From assembly GCF_038562415.1 (NCBI RefSeq), contig NZ_JBCFBA010000025.1, forward strand, positions 1 through 64,000: 64,000 bases of DNA, given 5' to 3'. Positions 18,757 through 36,221 of this stretch are shown piece after piece (the stretch's first letter is position 1; each line of letters opens with the position of its first letter). A program made the translations under genes and the position numbers. This DNA comes from Solidesulfovibrio sp. GTDB taxonomy: Bacteria; Desulfobacterota; Desulfovibrionia; Desulfovibrionales; Desulfovibrionaceae. Below the pieces are notes generated by a model. It was not told the origin of the DNA and searched no databases. It saw nothing but the letters and a program-made list of their open reading frames with translations.

Positions 18757-20073
18757 TCACGAAACCTCGGACTCTCCGATGTGCTTGGGACAGGTCGCCT
18801 GCTCACCGGACAGCATCCGCATGGCGCAAAGAGCCCCGCACATGGCGCATTCCTTTTCCGCGGCGTGAGCGGCCCGGCGCCGGCGCAGCAGGGCGGGATC
18901 CAGGGCCCGGGCGGCCATGGTTTCCCAATCCAGGCCGGCCCGAGCCCGGGACATGGCCAGATCCCTTCCCGCCGCCCAGGGCCGTCCAAGGGCGGCCTCG
19001 GCGCTTTGGGCCGCCACGCGGCTGGCCATGACCCCGTCCCACACATCCTGCTCCGACGGCAGGGTGAGATGCTCCGCCGGCGTCAGGTAACACAGGAAAT
19101 CCGCGCCGAAATACGCGGCAAGCGCGCCGCCCACGGCCCCCGCGATGTGGTCATACCCCGGGGCGCTGTCCGTGGTCAGCGGTCCCAGGACATACAGGGG
19201 AGCCCCGCCGGTCAGGCGCTTGATCCCTTGGATTTGCGATTGGACCAGATGCAACGGCACATGCCCCGGCCCTTCGATCATGGTCTGCACGCCGCGGCTC
19301 CTGGCCCTGGCGGCCAGTTGGCCGAGGGTGATGACCTCCTCCCACTGGGCTCCGTCTCCGGCATCGGCGCCACACCCCGGGCGCAGTCCGTCCCCGAGGC
19401 TGATGGTGACGTTATGGGCCAGACAGATATCGAGAATATCGTCATACCGGGTCAAAAAAGGATTTTCCCGGCCGTGTCGCTGCATGAAGCGTCCGAGGAT
19501 CGAACCGCCGCGCGAGACAATGCCCGTGACCCGACCGGTTGCGGCGGCCAAGTCCGCGGCCCTGCGGGTCACGCCGCAGTGCAGGGTCATGAAATCGACC
19601 CCGGCCGCCGCCTGCGCGGCAATTTCGGAAAGGATCTCCTCCTCGGTGAAGTCGCTGGGGTCGCCGCTGGCGGCAAGGTGACGTTGGGCCACGCCATACA
19701 GGGGCACGGTGCCGAGCGGCAGCGGGAGGGAGGCGAGGAGATCGCGGCGCATGGCGAATAAATCCCCCGCGGTGGACAAGTCCATGACGGTATGCGCACC
19801 GGCCGCCATGGCCAGGCGGGCTTTTTTCTGCTCCATTGCCATGTCGGTCACCAGCATCGAAGTGCCGATATTGGCATTGATTTTCACCTGGGCCGGCTGG
19901 CCGACAATGGTGGGGATGCCCCCAACGTGTCGCGGGTTGGCCAGAACAACCATGCGCCCGGAATCAACAGCGGACAGCATCGTTTCCCGGGAGAGGCTTT
20001 CTTTTCGCGCCAGTTCGTCGCCCCTGGCATGCAGCAATGCGGCAAGAATGTTATTGTTGTTGAGAATAGACAT
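18757..20073 (-). CDS. thiC: ThiC-family phosphomethylpyrimidine synthase, short form
   Basis: The 438-residue protein matches the short anaerobic ThiC form: ANPRHVGGIPTIVGQP, KINANIGTS near 65, GAHTVMDLSTAGD near 92, GVDFMTLHCGVTR near 150, SLGDGLRPGCGADAGDGAQ near 225, and MIEGPGHVPLH near 270. The C-terminal Fe-S motif is CAMCGALC, CX2CX3C, one residue shorter than the CX2CX4C I expect. ThiC converts AIR to HMP-phosphate for thiamine. A cobamide-ligand paralogue (BzaF-type) cannot be excluded. It starts 32 bases after the ProC-like gene, and I see no TPP riboswitch before it. Confidence 0.85.
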   Translation of the reverse strand: MSILNNNNILAALLHARGDELARKESLSRETMLSAVDSGRMVVLANPRHVGGIPTIVGQPAQVKINANIGTSMLVTDMAMEQKKARLAMAAGAHTVMDLSTAGDLFAMRRDLLASLPLPLGTVPLYGVAQRHLAASGDPSDFTEEEILSEIAAQAAAGVDFMTLHCGVTRRAADLAAATGRVTGIVSRGGSILGRFMQRHGRENPFLTRYDDILDICLAHNVTISLGDGLRPGCGADAGDGAQWEEVITLGQLAARARSRGVQTMIEGPGHVPLHLVQSQIQGIKRLTGGAPLYVLGPLTTDSAPGYDHIAGAVGGALAAYFGADFLCYLTPAEHLTLPSEQDVWDGVMASRVAAQSAEAALGRPWAAGRDLAMSRARAGLDWETMAARALDPALLRRRRAAHAAEKECAMCGALCAMRMLSGEQATCPKHIGESEVS

Positions 20074-27984: not shown

Positions 27985-28008
27985 CCGCATTATGTTATGT
28001 CGTCCCGT
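27985..28008. promoter_or_regulatory. Operator-like motif A, upstream of korA
   Basis: A 24-base element with core GTTATGTCGTCCC, one of five copies in this island. It lies upstream of korA on the opposite strand, next to a possible -10 (TAGTAT on the minus strand). Confidence 0.6.
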
Positions 28009-28088: not shown

Positions 28089-29411
28089 TTAAATCTCGCC
28101 CTTGGCCATCATCGATTCCCACACCAGACGGCATTCGGCGCCGATGGTCCGGAACGGTTCAGGCGGCAGCCAACTGGGTTTCTTGTCGTTTTTTAGATAC
28201 TCCAGCACGTCGCTGTTGATCCCGTTGGCCCACTCGGCGTGGTAGGCCCCCATGGTGAAGGTCTTGACCACGCCGGCACCTTCGCCGACGCTGGAGTAGT
28301 AGATGTTTCCCCGGCGGCCGAACACGGGCTTGGAGTTCATGGTCAGGTGGATGATGCCGGCCCACACGAACTCGAAGTTCACATGCTTGTGGTGGGGGAA
28401 GCGATTGTTGAAAGCCTTCCGCAGCATTCTTCTGGAACGGCGGATCCGCTCGGGCGAGGTGCTCAGCCACGTCGGGTAAATGAAGCCATTGCGGACCAGC
28501 AGGCGATTGTCAGACGTAAAGCGCACGGTCGTGCCCGCCGGATGGGCGGAGGTCACGCCCCAGGGATGCACGTCCTTGAAATCGGTCAATTCCTGCTCGT
28601 TGAGTTGCCGCGAGAGCGCGCCAAAGGAAATGACCGGACAGAAGGGGCCCTTGGACAAGCCGAATTCTTCGACAAAAGGACCGGCGGTCACGACAACGGC
28701 CTTGCAGCGCACGCGTTTCCCATTGACCAGCGCCACGATCGGTTCCGTCCCGTCATCGTCGATGCGAAGGACCGGGGTTTCCTCGAACACATGGACGTTT
28801 TTCGGCAGGACCGTAAACATGCCGCGCAGCACATCCGCCGGGTTGACCAGCGCCGTGCCGGGGTTGAAGAGGGCCTTTTTGTAGTACCGGGTACCGAATC
28901 GCCGCGAAAGTTCTTCCGCTTCGATATACCGATACTTGACGCCCAAATCATCAAGGTCCTTCGCCTCGTGATCCAGGTGCTTGAAGGCGCCGGGTTCGTA
29001 GGCGGCAAGATACTTGCCGCAGTCGTCCCAGTCGACCTTCAAGTCATGATCCTTGATGATGTTGCGCATCTTCGCCAGGGAACTCAGGTTCAGCTGCACG
29101 CACCACTTCTTGTCTTCAAGCGTGGAGTCGTCCGATCCGAAAGCATGCGGGACATCAATGAGGAACCCGGCATTTTTGCCGCTGTCGTTGTTGCCGATAC
29201 GGATCGCCTCGAAAACAGCGACCTTGGCCTCCGGGTTCAGTTCGGCGAAGCGCCAGGCGGCCCCGAATCCACCATAACCGCCCCCCACGACAACGAAGTC
29301 ATACTTATCCAGGATTTCGTGACGGAGATGGAATTGGTGCGTTTTGAATGAAGAAGTCTCAAGCCAACCAGAAGGTCCGAGTTCGGCAGGAAAAATCTTG
29401 ACCTCTGACAT
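28089..29411 (-). CDS. FAD-dependent amine/amino-acid oxidoreductase (DAO family)
   Basis: The 440-residue start MSEVKIF was chosen because GGAGG lies 8 bases before it; an ATG 21 bases upstream lacks a site. The dinucleotide fold is VVVGGGYGGFGAAWRFAEL (about 41-59) with acidic FEAIRIGNNDSGKNAG following. The C-terminal half keeps the DAO-fold strand pattern (YYSSVGEGAGVVKTF). It resembles PuuB/glycine-oxidase-type proteins but is not a clear match to one. It probably oxidises a C-N bond to an imine; in an anaerobe electrons would go to a carrier, not oxygen. Substrate unknown. Confidence 0.8.
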   Translation of the reverse strand: MSEVKIFPAELGPSGWLETSSFKTHQFHLRHEILDKYDFVVVGGGYGGFGAAWRFAELNPEAKVAVFEAIRIGNNDSGKNAGFLIDVPHAFGSDDSTLEDKKWCVQLNLSSLAKMRNIIKDHDLKVDWDDCGKYLAAYEPGAFKHLDHEAKDLDDLGVKYRYIEAEELSRRFGTRYYKKALFNPGTALVNPADVLRGMFTVLPKNVHVFEETPVLRIDDDGTEPIVALVNGKRVRCKAVVVTAGPFVEEFGLSKGPFCPVISFGALSRQLNEQELTDFKDVHPWGVTSAHPAGTTVRFTSDNRLLVRNGFIYPTWLSTSPERIRRSRRMLRKAFNNRFPHHKHVNFEFVWAGIIHLTMNSKPVFGRRGNIYYSSVGEGAGVVKTFTMGAYHAEWANGINSDVLEYLKNDKKPSWLPPEPFRTIGAECRLVWESMMAKGEI

Positions 29412-29437
29412 TGAAAGATCCTCCATGTTCAACTATT

Positions 29438-29461
29438 CCGGAATAAGTTACGTTGTTCCAT
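29438..29461. promoter_or_regulatory. Operator-like motif B, upstream of the FAD gene
   Basis: A weaker copy of the 24-base element, core GTTACGTTGTTCC, 27 bases before the FAD-gene start. Its right half departs from the other four copies. Confidence 0.5.
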
Positions 29462-29543: not shown

Positions 29544-30905
29544 TCAGTTCTTGACCGATGCCGAAGGAACGGCAGCCAGGGCCGGGCTCCCGTCTCCGAG
29601 TGCGTCGGGCTTGCGGAACTTGTCCGACGTTTCAGGCGCCCAAATCTGGCACACCACGCCACCAATGATCAACGTCGCGATACAGCCGCCGAGGGAGGCG
29701 AAGACACCGAATTTCTCACTGACAATGGGCAGCAGGAACGTTCCCCCCGCAGCGCCGATACGGCTGATGGCGACAGTCAAGCCCACACCGGAGGCACGCA
29801 ACTCGGTGGGGAAAAGCTCGGGGGGATATGAGAACTCCAAGACAATGGAAATCGCCAGCACCAGGGAAAAGGCGGCGAGGAGAAAGAGTGCGATTTGCCC
29901 AGGCATGCCCTGCCACACCGTCATAACAGTCAAAATCGCGGCAGCCAGATAAAAGGTCCAGAGCAAATAGGCTCGCCGGGAAATCCTATCGATGAGCCAT
30001 GTGCCAATGAGCACACCCGCCATGGTCAAGGCATTGTACAGAATGCCGGACGCATTCGGATTTTCGATTTTCAGGTCGGACAAGACAAGGGGCAGGAAAA
30101 TGCTGATGGCGAAAAAAGGCAAGACCTGCGCGGCAAAAAACACACCGGAAACGAGGGTGTTGAAACGAAGTTCCTTGCTGAAAAGCGCGAACCAGGAGAC
30201 GGACCGCGTGGATTCGCTGATCGCCGGCAGCACATACTGCGTGCCGAGGTACCGCTGCACGAGGCCAAGCGCCTCGGCATTCCTCCCCTTGCCGGCAAGC
30301 CAGCCCGGAGACTCCGGAATGCCAATGCGCAACAGCAACGTAATCACGCCAGGCACAGCGGACGTACACAAGATCATGCGCCAGCTCACCTCGCCGAGGC
30401 TATTGAGGAAAACACCGGCGGCATACGAAATGACATACCCAATTGTCCAAAACACGAGAAGCCAGCTCAAGATACGTGGCCGCAACCCGCGCGGACTCCA
30501 TTCGCTCAGCAAGGCGATACCGACCGTATAGTCCGCGCCGATCGTCATTCCCAGGAAAAAGCGGAGGATCGCCAAGGCCAGCGGATCGGAAACAAGGAAC
30601 TGCGCCGCGGATAACAGCACGGAAGCGCAAATGACCGCCGGGAAGAGAAACTTTCTGCCGATGCGGTCGGCCACCGACCCGATGATGAGACTCCCGAAGA
30701 GAATCCCGAGCAAGGCTCCCGCCCCGATAAGGCCCAACCAGAACGAGGTCAGTCCCAATGGTTTCGTCGCATAGCTCAAGGCGATGCCGACGATGCCGAG
30801 CGTGTAGCCATCGCAGATCTGCCCCATGAATGCGCCGGCCCGGATTTTGCGATGGATAGCGGAGAAAGGGGCCTCTTCAAAACTGTACGTTTGCTGTTCT
30901 GCCAT
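29544..30905 (-). CDS. MFS transporter (second, catabolic island)
   Basis: The 453-residue protein starts after CGAGGAGCCAACG. It has 12 hydrophobic segments and the MFS motifs DRIGRKFLFP (loop 2-3), LSEWSPRGLRPR, RIGIPESPGWL (central) and WLIDRISRRAYLL (8-9). It is related to the 21035 carrier but distinct in sequence. A strong sigma-70 promoter and an operator copy lie 220-280 bases upstream. Its regulation matches that of the FAD enzyme, kor operon and porin, so it probably imports their substrate. Confidence 0.87.
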   Translation of the reverse strand: MAEQQTYSFEEAPFSAIHRKIRAGAFMGQICDGYTLGIVGIALSYATKPLGLTSFWLGLIGAGALLGILFGSLIIGSVADRIGRKFLFPAVICASVLLSAAQFLVSDPLALAILRFFLGMTIGADYTVGIALLSEWSPRGLRPRILSWLLVFWTIGYVISYAAGVFLNSLGEVSWRMILCTSAVPGVITLLLRIGIPESPGWLAGKGRNAEALGLVQRYLGTQYVLPAISESTRSVSWFALFSKELRFNTLVSGVFFAAQVLPFFAISIFLPLVLSDLKIENPNASGILYNALTMAGVLIGTWLIDRISRRAYLLWTFYLAAAILTVMTVWQGMPGQIALFLLAAFSLVLAISIVLEFSYPPELFPTELRASGVGLTVAISRIGAAGGTFLLPIVSEKFGVFASLGGCIATLIIGGVVCQIWAPETSDKFRKPDALGDGSPALAAVPSASVKN

Positions 30906-31125: not shown

Positions 31126-31149
31126 CCGAATTGTGTTACGTCGTACCGT
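31126..31149. promoter_or_regulatory. Operator-like motif C, MFS promoter
   Basis: Copy of the 24-base element, core GTTACGTCGTACC, placed 8 bases past the -10 of the minus-strand MFS promoter. It would cover the transcription start, as repressor sites do. Confidence 0.65.
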
Positions 31150-31460: not shown

Positions 31461-31484
31461 TTGGGACATCGTAACATAATTCGG
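31461..31484. promoter_or_regulatory. Operator-like motif D, porin promoter
   Basis: Inverted copy of the 24-base element (minus-strand core GTTACGATGTCCC) abutting the porin -10, about 145 bases before the porin start. Confidence 0.65.
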
Positions 31485-33201: not shown

Positions 33202-33260
33202 TTGACTTTTCCGCCAACGCGGCTAGGCTGTAAAAAACGGTACGGCGTAACTTAATTCGG
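33202..33260 (+). promoter_or_regulatory. Promoter and operator-like motif E before the radical SAM gene
   Basis: TTGACT at 33202-33207 and TAGGCT at 33224-33229 (16-base spacer) are followed at 33237-33260 by an inverted copy of the 24-base element (minus-strand core GTTACGCCGTACC). The layout is that of the porin and MFS promoters, so the radical SAM/HD pair appears to share their regulator. Confidence 0.65.
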
Positions 33261-33318: not shown

Positions 33319-34362
33319 ATGCGATTGCAACCCGTAGGCTATAGTCATCTCGGCAGGTCCCATTCCGATGGCATACGGTATGTCTGGAAGCTCCTTGAAA
33401 AATCGCCATTTGTTGAAAGCGCCGCATTTAAGACCCGGGCAAAAATTCCGACAGCTGCGCATGACAAGCATATTTCGGCGTACACGACTTCTGTCAGTTC
33501 TGGATGCGCACTGACATCCGGCCGGATACCATGTAAATTTTGTCGGACAGGGAATACGTTGCGTTTTTCCGGACCGCTGACGGCGAAGGAAATCGCCATG
33601 CAAAATATCTTCATGGTCATGTCGGATATCGATCAACCCGTAAACGACCCTGTACTCAACAATCTTCGGGAATTCGCGTATATGGGACAAGGTGAACCTG
33701 GTTTTTCCTATACGCAGCTGCGCCAGGCCATACGCATCACAGACCAGGCGATGCGTTTTCTCAAACAAAGAGTTCACAGGCACATCGTGGCAACAAGCGG
33801 TGTGGTCGAGATGGTTGACGCTCTTATCTGCGATCTCAAGAATAATTTTTTCGAAGACACAAGAGTAACGTTTCACTATTCGCTTCACGCCACGCAACAC
33901 AGAACGGATGTAATGCCCATCAATACCCTTTATGACTTCAAGGACATTGTCAAACGATTGCCGGCATTGCAAAAACTGACTGGCGAAAAACCGTGCGTCG
34001 GCGTGCTGATTTTCAAAGACTATTGCAATAGGGATAATCCGCAACACTACTCGACGAACGAGGAAGAAATACAAAGGATGGCAGACCTGCTTGATCCCGA
34101 GGTGTGTCGCATCAGCTTGTGCGAATTCAATCCATGCGACAACATCGGCACGAACGCCGCGGTCAGTCCTGCGGAAGCCTCGCGACTTGTAGAGAAACTC
34201 GAAGAGAGAGGTTTTCAAGTCAAGCTCTTCGCCTCTTTTGGACAGCAGGAAAACACAGCCTGTGGACTACTCGGCGGCACGATGCCGGACCAGCTGGCCG
34301 ATGAGGCCATCTTATCCCGATACATCCGGGCTTCCTCCCTCATAGAAACGGTTTGCAATTGA
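33319..34362 (+). CDS. RlmN/Cfr-like radical SAM protein with altered cysteine motif
   Basis: The 347-residue protein starts after GGAGGTGGCACC. Its core follows RlmN: YMGQGEP (121-127), VATSGVVEMV, HYSLHATQHRTDVMPIN, SLCEFNPCDN and a C-terminal ACGLLGG with C315 where RlmN carries its methyl-carrying Cys. Two departures: the Fe-S ligands are C63, C72 and C75 (CX8CX2C instead of CX3CX2C), and the position of the resolving Cys is T56. The N-terminal RNA-binding part is short. Classic rRNA methylation is therefore doubtful. GC is lower than its neighbours, suggesting transfer. Confidence 0.75.
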   Translation: MRLQPVGYSHLGRSHSDGIRYVWKLLEKSPFVESAAFKTRAKIPTAAHDKHISAYTTSVSSGCALTSGRIPCKFCRTGNTLRFSGPLTAKEIAMQNIFMVMSDIDQPVNDPVLNNLREFAYMGQGEPGFSYTQLRQAIRITDQAMRFLKQRVHRHIVATSGVVEMVDALICDLKNNFFEDTRVTFHYSLHATQHRTDVMPINTLYDFKDIVKRLPALQKLTGEKPCVGVLIFKDYCNRDNPQHYSTNEEEIQRMADLLDPEVCRISLCEFNPCDNIGTNAAVSPAEASRLVEKLEERGFQVKLFASFGQQENTACGLLGGTMPDQLADEAILSRYIRASSLIETVCN

Positions 34363-34419
34363 TGCGTCACGAATGCTACTCCAAAAACATGCCAAATTCT
34401 CTTGCTGGAGAGAGGGTTC

Positions 34420-34992
34420 ATGGATTACACCGCACTTGAAGGAATACTGGTGTTCATTAAAAAAGCAGAAAACCTTAAAAACACCCTTCGGTATTCATTT
34501 ACGTCAAACGGGAGTCAAGAGAGTTCTGCGGAGCACAGTTGGAGACTCAGCCTCCTTGTTATGATGTGTGCGGGCGCATTTCCTGGCTTGAACCTTGAAA
34601 GAGCGCTCAAACTGGCCATAATTCACGATTTGCCAGAAGCTATCTGTGGAGATACCCCCGCAATATATCAAGAAGAATATGCAACAAAAGCTACCAAGGA
34701 ACGAAACGCGCTTAGCGAAATAATTCAGTCGCTGACGATTGAAACGCAAAATAATATCATTGAACTATGGGAAGAATACGAAAACGCAACAACGGAAGAA
34801 GCAAAATATGTAAAATGCCTCGACAAACTCGAAACGCTCATCCAGCATAACCAGGGTATCAACCCTATTGAATTCAACTATGAATTCAATATTACGTATG
34901 GCAATGAACTTGTGGCGGACAATAAAATTTTCTCAAAATTGAAACAGATGATTGATGTCGAGACACAGCGGCATATCGAACGAGTTTCTTGA
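34420..34992 (+). CDS. HD-domain phosphohydrolase, YfbR/HDDC2-like
   Basis: The 190-residue protein starts after GGAGAGAGGGTTC. Metal and catalytic residues of the HD fold are in place: H39 (SSAEHSW), H69-D70 (AIIHDLPEA) and D135 (KCLDKLETL), with GDTP near 78 as in 5'-deoxynucleotidases of the YfbR/HDDC2 family. It lies 57 bases after the radical SAM gene, same strand, with similar low-GC composition. It probably dephosphorylates a nucleotide; whether that is the radical SAM product or cofactor is inference. Confidence 0.8.
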   Translation: MDYTALEGILVFIKKAENLKNTLRYSFTSNGSQESSAEHSWRLSLLVMMCAGAFPGLNLERALKLAIIHDLPEAICGDTPAIYQEEYATKATKERNALSEIIQSLTIETQNNIIELWEEYENATTEEAKYVKCLDKLETLIQHNQGINPIEFNYEFNITYGNELVADNKIFSKLKQMIDVETQRHIERVS

Positions 34993-35229
34993 TGCATGAC
35001 TGGCCTGCAACGAAAACTTGGCAAGCCTCTAGAAAAGGACGAATGGCACCGGGGTATTTGGGCTGGTTATCCTCGACGAGCGGCCCAAAAGGCGCTGTCA
35101 AGTCTATGCGCCGATTCCTCGACCAGATGGAGATTGAAGGAGGAATGTTTTTTTAATACAATTATTACGTGTGTGCGGCAAAAGAGACGAGCCAGCCCTG
35201 AAAATGCATTGGAACACCTTGGGGGCTAC

Positions 35230-35674
35230 ATGGAGATTGAAAAAATTATTCAAGAGATGGTCGATTTCGAAACAAAAGGTTGGAACACAAAAGACCCTGA
35301 ATTGTTCTTATCCATGATCCATCCCGACATGGCCTGGCCTTGGCCGCCGACGGCAAAGTCTCATGATCCAATCGATTGGGTTTTTATAATGGGGCGCTTG
35401 ACAGGGAACGGTGGCGAGAAATATGGCAAGAGCTTTTTGATTCACATGACCTGATTTATAATCATCGCACCACACAGAAGATCGTCGTTCCTCGGAACGT
35501 GATGCCGCATTCGCCGTGGTCGATATCAACACCTTGTGGCGGCATACGAACACCAAGAAAGAATCGCATTGGAAAGGACGCGTTTGCAAGATATATACAA
35601 AAATCGCACCAGGTGAATGGAAATTTTACTATCAAACAGGAGCTCTCAGCTTTCCTCCAGAAAAAACAGCCTAG
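35230..35674 (+). pseudogene. SnoaL/NTF2-like protein broken by two frameshifts
   Basis: Starting at MEIEKIIQEMVDFETKGW, the reading runs to SHDPIDWVFIMGRL near 35395. It continues in a second frame as RERWREIWQELFDSHDL and HNHRTTQKIVV-type sequence, then from about 35492 in a third frame as ERDAAFAVVDINTLW and KGRVCKIYTK to YYQTGALSFPPEKTA and a stop at 35672. Joined, this is one small SnoaL/NTF2-like domain of about 145 residues. Two single-base changes disable it, unless they are sequencing errors. Function unknown. Confidence 0.6.
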
Positions 35675-36221
35675 CGAGTCGAGACAACGCGACGTCACCG
35701 GACAAAACGGATTCCGGTCGGGCCCTTTCCGACGAACGGCGGCGTCCTGACCTGACATATCGGACGACGGCCCTCCGCCTCCCCGGAAGTCTCCCGGCCG
35801 GTTCATCAGGGACCATGCCGCAGTCGTCGTACGAGACCTGCCCGAAGGGCATAGCGAGCTTTTGCCGCCGAAATTCGAAACGCTGCTCCAGCCTTTTGGC
35901 GACGCCCAGTTTGTGAACGGCAAGGCCATGGACGCTTGCCTTGTTACGGGGCACACCGTTGCGGCACGTGCGGCCACGGCCCGAGCCACCGGCTTTGCGC
36001 CAGGCGCAAGGCAGCGAACATGCTATGGATGGTCGTCTGGCACAGCGCCGCGCACCGCCGGGGCAGGTTGCCCACCGCCACCGGATGCAGGCCCGGGCGG
36101 AACAGCATGGCCGCCAGGAGCGGGCCATCCCGGGCGTCGAGCGGGAAACGGGAAACAGCACCCACGCCTTGCGTTGCGCCAGCCCGCGCATCGGCAGGAC
36201 CACGGCGAGATCGGATCGGCG
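35675..36221. other. Probable gene relics, no intact gene
   Basis: No ORF has both a start site and coherent sequence. On the minus strand, VVLPMRGLAQRKAWVLFPVS runs out near 36130 and the next frame continues DARDGPLLAAMLFRPGLHPV, then AVGNLPRRCAALCQTTIHSM, suggesting a frameshifted gene downstream of the HAD gene. On the plus strand near 35860 another coherent-looking stretch (LLPPKFETLLQPFGDAQF) exists. I cannot name either. Confidence 0.35.

Follow-up and report, generated by a model that had tools for sequence, protein, structure and literature searches.

We analysed a window of 64,000 nucleotides of Solidesulfovibrio sp. (contig NZ_JBCFBA010000025.1, positions 1 to 64,000), in which a gene for a radical SAM (rSAM) protein related to RlmN and Cfr is followed by a gene for an HD phosphohydrolase (Table 1). 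Both open reading frames are intact. The first in-frame TTG of the HD gene is at 34402 and an ATG with a good ribosome-binding site (GGAGAGAGG) is at 34420. The ATG start lies 57 bases behind the stop of the rSAM gene and yields the residue numbers of the HD protein given in the initial annotation. The GC content is 50.1% for the rSAM gene and 41.4% for the HD gene versus 62.6% for the window, so the earlier claim that both genes are lower in GC is borne out. Behind the HD gene, positions 34996-35750 hold short open reading frames, one of them faintly SnoaL-like (E 0.12), which are possibly the remains of a further gene.

Table 1. Features of the window, and metallophosphoesterase fusions of the same family at other loci (locus handle before the colon).
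Feature	Position	Strand	Remark
RlmN/Cfr-related radical SAM gene	33319..34362	+	347 aa; CX8CX2C; without N-terminal HhH2 domain
Cluster-binding motif C63-X8-C72-X2-C75	33505..33543	+	Spacing invariant in 14 family sequences
Cys268	34120..34122	+	Family-invariant; Ile309 in E. coli RlmN (alignment)
Cys315	34261..34263	+	Equivalent of methyl-carrier Cys355 of RlmN (alignment)
HD_3 phosphohydrolase gene (YfbR/HDDC2-like)	34420..34992	+	190 aa; H39, H69-D70, D135; Pfam: PF13023
Operator before radical SAM-HD pair	33238..33260	-	CCGAATTAAGTTACGCCGTACCG
Operator before porin gene	31462..31484	-	
Operator before MFS transporter gene	31126..31148	+	
Operator before FAD oxidoreductase gene	29438..29460	+	
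Operator before VorB-like 2-oxoacid oxidoreductase gene	27985..28007	+	
MFS transporter gene	29544..30905	-	Syntenic catabolic island
FAD-dependent oxidoreductase (DAO) gene	28089..29432	-	Syntenic catabolic island
Metallophosphoesterase-rSAM fusion	L007:11063-13132		
Metallophosphoesterase-rSAM fusion	L005:10969-13032		
Metallophosphoesterase-rSAM fusion	L010:8437-10509		
Metallophosphoesterase-rSAM fusion	L011:6624-8750		

The rSAM protein matched no family in the Pfam search and had no match in PHROGs. Its best profile is the RlmN model (NCBIfam: TIGR00048) with an E-value of 1.7e-19, and its score of 70 bits stays below the RlmN threshold of 290. The two Cfr models (NCBIfam: TIGR04432 and NF000424) score 53 and 57 bits, below their cut-offs of 550 and 530. 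The cluster motif (TTSVSSGCALTSGRIPCKFCRTG) is five residues longer than the CX3CX2C motif of RlmN and Cfr. The CX8CX2C spacing is exact in all 14 family sequences, which are 35-63% identical, so the insertion is present as first described, and a sequencing error over a normal CX3CX2C motif is ruled out as its source.

E33, T56, S58, C268, N271 and C315 are invariant across the 14 sequences. Aligned with E. coli RlmN, whose residue numbers were counted from the alignments, E33 corresponds to E105, Q124 to M176, C268 to I309, N271 to N312 and C315 to C355. The initial annotation had placed a threonine at the position of the resolving cysteine (C118 in E. coli). The loss of the cysteine stands; the threonine itself depends on the alignment, because gap placement differs, with Thr56 at this position in the ungapped profile alignment and Ser58 in the MAFFT alignment. 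Cys268 lies three residues ahead of N271, in a predicted strand formed by residues 264-269. The strand pattern of the model suggests that it faces the active site, and it could be a new active-site cysteine and a potential stand-in for the resolving cysteine.

A structure model built from 14 sequences (pLDDT 86, pTM 0.89) has the RlmN/Cfr-type barrel as its closest fold. It matches RlmN with Z-scores of 27-29 (29.3 for 6fz6 and 28.6 for 5hr7) and Cfr with 19.9, versus about 15 or less for other radical SAM folds. This fold match, together with the equivalence of C315 and C355, upholds the RlmN core and the C-terminal cysteine that had been claimed. The conformation of C315 is left undefined by the model, because residues 306-317 have low confidence. 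The match begins at about residue 78 of E. coli RlmN and the RlmN core fills the 347 amino acids. By structure and sequence alignments the N-terminal HhH2 domain, which serves RNA binding in RlmN and Cfr (PMC13001441), is absent in the rSAM protein and its relatives. The RNA substrate considered in the initial annotation is accordingly not supported, since the RNA-binding domain of RlmN and Cfr is missing; RNA binding might come from a partner protein.

RlmN and Cfr perform the textbook two-cysteine methyl transfer to RNA. In RlmN, E105 activates the methyl carrier C355, C118 helps to release the crosslink, and a C118A variant leaves a stable protein-RNA crosslink (PMC9692996). Cfr variants C105A and C105S likewise form stable protein-RNA crosslinks, and even C105S stalls (PMC13001441). 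Since Cfr C105S builds up the crosslink, a plain RlmN mechanism would stall in the window enzyme, and since class-A chemistry needs the resolving cysteine, the enzyme may catalyse something other than methylation. The stable crosslinks of RlmN C118A and Cfr C105A/C105S (PMC9692996, PMC13001441) are also what speaks for a covalent trap, an enzyme that without the resolving cysteine would remain bound via C315 in a crosslink to its nucleotide or RNA target, as a single-use inhibitor. We consider such a trap very improbable: the invariant Cys268 could replace the resolving cysteine, accessory hydrolases would be purposeless and single-turnover enzymes are rare.

The HD protein matches HD_3 (Pfam: PF13023) with 135.9 bits at a cut-off of 22.5. 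The closest solved structure in a PDB sequence search is human HDDC2 (E 2.4e-17), and more distant matches are YGK1 (YGL101W), DatZ and YfbR. All the metal residues first described are found and are conserved in the orthologue of genome G567, which belongs to a second genus of the window's family. Judged from its sequence, the protein is an intact phosphohydrolase of the YfbR/HDDC2 type. It is similar in length to YfbR, YGK1 and HDDC2, with the same H...HD...D metal site, and sequence inspection pairs R18 and D77 of YfbR with Arg24 and Asp78. In YfbR, a tryptophan (W19) excludes ribonucleotides (PMC8177086). Unlike in YfbR, this gate is replaced in the two orthologues, by eye a Tyr in the window protein and a His in that of G567.

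The initial annotation had named the occurrence of the pair in other genomes as a test. In one other genome, G567, both genes are found side by side with 63% (rSAM) and 57% (HD) identity. The identity at codon positions 2, 1 and 3 is 82.6, 70.9 and 40.5% between the rSAM orthologues and 76.3, 63.2 and 31.1% between the HD orthologues, a pattern from which it follows that both genes encode constrained proteins. The HD gene adjoins the rSAM gene in two of ten distinct loci, both of them in the window's family. No HD gene of this type was found beside the rSAM gene in the gut loci, in L009 (a 0.9-Mb genome) or in the phage contig L011, and none in virus contigs. The hosts of L003 and L008 encode HD homologues on other contigs or far off. 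The HD protein was thus dismissed as a general partner for other phyla, and the pairing implied by the initial annotation does not extend across the rSAM family.

The pair stands under the operator of a catabolic island. Five copies of the operator (consensus CCGAATTANGTTAYGNNGTNCCG) are found in the window, in equal orientation relative to the gene. Under a matrix built without that site, the copy before the rSAM gene scores 29.9 bits versus 13.9 bits for the best non-operator place in the 64 kb, which confirms the shared operator described earlier. Genes of the island code for a pyrroline-5-carboxylate reductase, a Rid protein, VorB and an ADP-forming acyl-CoA ligase, and the island of G567 has a proline-racemase-type gene; by these annotations it looks like amino-acid catabolism. 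A ThiC gene (524 bits, over the cut-off) also lies inside the island, at 18757-20073 of the window, and is absent from the part of the G567 island that was read.

In G567 the order is acyl-CoA ligase, 2-oxoacid oxidoreductase, FAD oxidoreductase and MFS transporter, followed by the rSAM and HD genes on the opposite strand. The same operator is present before the 2-oxoacid oxidoreductase gene and between the MFS gene and the divergent glyoxalase-rSAM-HD genes, the glyoxalase-like gene occupying the place of the porin gene in the window. Just after the pair, G567 has a transposase-like gene and a gene (L020:11085-12953) whose product joins a QatC/QueC-like part to a DpnII-MboI-type nuclease domain.

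The pair might serve this island by preparing or detoxifying a metabolite or nucleotide adduct from substrate oxidation. The operator common to the MFS, porin, FAD oxidoreductase and 2-oxoacid oxidoreductase genes and the same neighbourhood in G567 would fit, as would the FAD oxidoreductase, whose close orthologue (78%) occurs with the rSAM gene in the same two of 199 family genomes; ten other family genomes have FAD oxidoreductase copies of 53-56% and no rSAM gene. We nevertheless regard a service to the island as quite unlikely, since the rSAM family is found elsewhere without such an island, the pair is lower in GC and in identity between the window and G567 (57-63%) than the island genes (70-88%), and no chemical step of the island obviously requires it. 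The lower GC and identity suggest a separate origin or faster evolution of the pair. Low GC, together with a rare and patchy distribution, the transposase-like and QatC-like genes directly after the pair in G567 and an HD gene that does not accompany the rSAM gene in other phyla, would also fit mobile passenger genes that landed by the island and came under its promoter, the two proteins having no functional connection. That is distinctly unlikely given the clear purifying selection and the fact that in both genera the two genes stand in the same order, close together and with intact frames.

The CX8CX2C family is rare and patchy in distribution. In a protein scan of 84,980 genomes, eight loci with 40-48% identity were detected, two of which are equivalent Prevotella copies; the seven distinct genome loci belong to Lachnospiraceae, Oscillospiraceae, Prevotella and the 0.9-Mb genome. 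One further locus, on phage contig L011, came from a scan of a virus collection, where this contig recurred and no other virus contig had the family. The members thus come from gut Bacillota, Prevotella, the 0.9-Mb genome, a phage contig and, with the 63% identical orthologue of G567, another genome of the window's family. Support of 96/98 sets them apart from five RlmN sequences, and forks within the clade are partly unresolved. In the window's family, two of 199 genomes are carriers. Within the phylum it is one of 395, the window's own genome; a second match among these was dismissed as ordinary RlmN. In samples of 245, 299 and 192 genomes, the seed genome was the only carrier in each. The samples hold one genome per species, and therefore the rarity concerns species and not strains. 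A search for close relatives in plasmid or phage records turned up only ordinary RlmN or Cfr.

Of the 29 genomes tested, 28 encode an ordinary RlmN; the hosts of L003, L004, L005, L007, L008, L009 and L010 as well as G567 are among them. This speaks against methylation of A2503 in rRNA as the general job of the family. In the window's own assembly no ordinary RlmN was found with the family model or with an RlmN of the same genus. This assembly is one draft of 51 contigs, so the missing gene could be an assembly gap. A flank search turned up only a dispersed intergenic repeat. The repeat is about 170 bp long (e.g. C3:260918-261090), has 61 matches in the assembly and is shared with a genome of the same genus.

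These results bear on whether the rSAM protein is an RNA modification enzyme for tRNA, rRNA or foreign RNA, which would bind RNA through a partner or its own surface and have the HD gene beside it by coincidence. RlmN is the closest fold and the best profile, and the enzyme could stand in for RlmN in the window's genome. We judge this unlikely because the HhH2 domain is missing, as is the resolving cysteine that is essential in RlmN and Cfr, and because an ordinary RlmN occurs in all 28 other genomes, among them G567, which also has the pair.

Outside the window's family, the rSAM gene has other neighbours. Neighbour genes were called by a simple ORF rule, and several loci stop at contig edges. 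A gene for an undescribed protein of 300-350 amino acids adjoins the rSAM gene in six of six distinct gut-genome loci (L003, L004, L005, L007, L008 and L010; for example L007:9034-9975). This protein had no significant Pfam match and no match in a PDB sequence search; its best sequence-profile score is that of Q_salvage (E 0.089). A structure model (pLDDT 87) matches Qng1/DUF2419, the queuosine-5'-phosphate glycosidase, over the whole chain with a Z-score of 21.1, followed by endonuclease III with 14.3. In its predicted fold the partner thus resembles the Qng1 glycosidase. Unlike Qng1 it has four invariant C-terminal cysteines, which may bind an Fe-S cluster, and it is only about 12% identical. 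The Qng1-like gene is absent from the window, from L009 and from the phage contig L011, and none was found in virus contigs or plasmids.

In four loci (L005, L007, L010 and L011) a second CX8CX2C copy is fused behind a metallophosphoesterase. The phosphoesterase part matches an endonuclease effector of PADLOC with E-values of 1e-28 to 1e-34, and two anti-phage phosphoesterases of NCBIfam with scores below the cut-off. The PADLOC search with the window pair gave no meaningful match to any described defence family. The common theme among the neighbours is nucleotide hydrolysis or kinase partners and not the HD protein. From their position, these neighbours would presumably act on the substrate or product of the rSAM enzyme.

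Further genes were seen near members of the family. L003 has a recombinase-like gene nearby, and a Pycsar-type cyclase (L003:7116-9869) as well as more small and cyclase-like genes lie near its rSAM gene. In L009 (L009:214-3921) the rSAM gene is found with thymidylate-kinase-like, second radical SAM and GHMP-kinase-like genes. Near the CX8CX2C gene of L004 stands a third radical SAM gene (L004:5151-6065), which is very divergent and has the normal CX3CX2C spacing.

The changed cluster site, the loss of the RNA-binding domain and of the release cysteine and the neighbouring nucleotide enzymes point to a probable small-nucleotide substrate. We tentatively favour, as possible rather than established, a new clade of class-A (RlmN/Cfr-type) enzymes acting on a small nucleotide, with processing partners. 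SAM would methylate C315, and a second SAM would yield the 5'-deoxyadenosyl radical. The resulting methylene radical on C315 would, as in RlmN, add to a base at an sp2 carbon, the substrate being a small nucleotide or nucleoside 5'-phosphate and not a large RNA. The adduct would be resolved by another group, either C268 or a partner. The HD protein would then, like OxsA with OxsB, take a phosphate off the substrate or product. For this processing role other bacteria may use the Qng1-like N-glycosidase and the phosphoesterase-rSAM fusion, in loci that would be mobile and often defence-like. In the window's lineage the regulator of a catabolic island of amino-acid type would have come to control the pair. 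Where the initial annotation proposed that the pair modifies a nucleotide or RNA, the nucleotide part thus gains from the Qng1-like glycosidase and the phosphoesterase fusion found elsewhere, and the RNA part does not. Its example of a modified nucleotide being made and trimmed is a good guess, for which OxsB/OxsA offers a precedent.

The company in gut loci and phage also suggests a role in defence. The clade might be the core of an undescribed system of immunity or conflict in which radical chemistry derived from RlmN produces or breaks down a modified nucleotide, a reading we hold to be unlikely. In such a system Qng1-like glycosidases, defence-type phosphoesterases or HD nucleotidases would serve for processing or release; the parallel would be viperin, which belongs to another radical SAM family. 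The window's pair is itself placed in a metabolic regulon.

In the open-access literature we found no papers that link defence islands to RlmN-like proteins. One paper, a review of Fe-S biogenesis by NMR (PMC6205161), contains 'CX8CX2C' alongside 'radical SAM'. The CX8CX2C RlmN-like clade is apparently undescribed. The clade would show how RlmN-type chemistry can serve other substrates and how a crosslink is resolved without C118. The genes around it in gut bacteria and a phage point to a nucleotide-based system that is so far unexplored.

Compared with known systems, the window enzyme shares with RlmN and Cfr the core fold, the methyl-carrier cysteine, the base glutamate, the SAM-contact asparagine and the region of the GEP motif, which reads MGQGEP versus MGMGEP in RlmN. 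It differs from both by the CX8CX2C in place of the CX3CX2C motif and by lacking the resolving cysteine and the N-terminal HhH2 domain. The combination of a radical SAM enzyme with an HD phosphohydrolase is known from OxsB and OxsA, where a nucleotide is modified and then dephosphorylated (PMC7074753, PMC8177086). OxsB is cobalamin-dependent, whereas the window enzyme is RlmN-derived: Pfam detects no cobalamin-binding domain in it, and the RlmN core fills its chain. When the HD protein was searched against PDB sequences, OxsA did not appear up to an E-value of 10. Viperin, an immune protein, is a radical SAM enzyme with a free nucleotide (CTP) as its substrate. The window enzyme belongs to a different radical SAM family, with a fold match to viperin of Z about 14 versus 29 for RlmN, and like viperin it is proposed to act on a free nucleotide.
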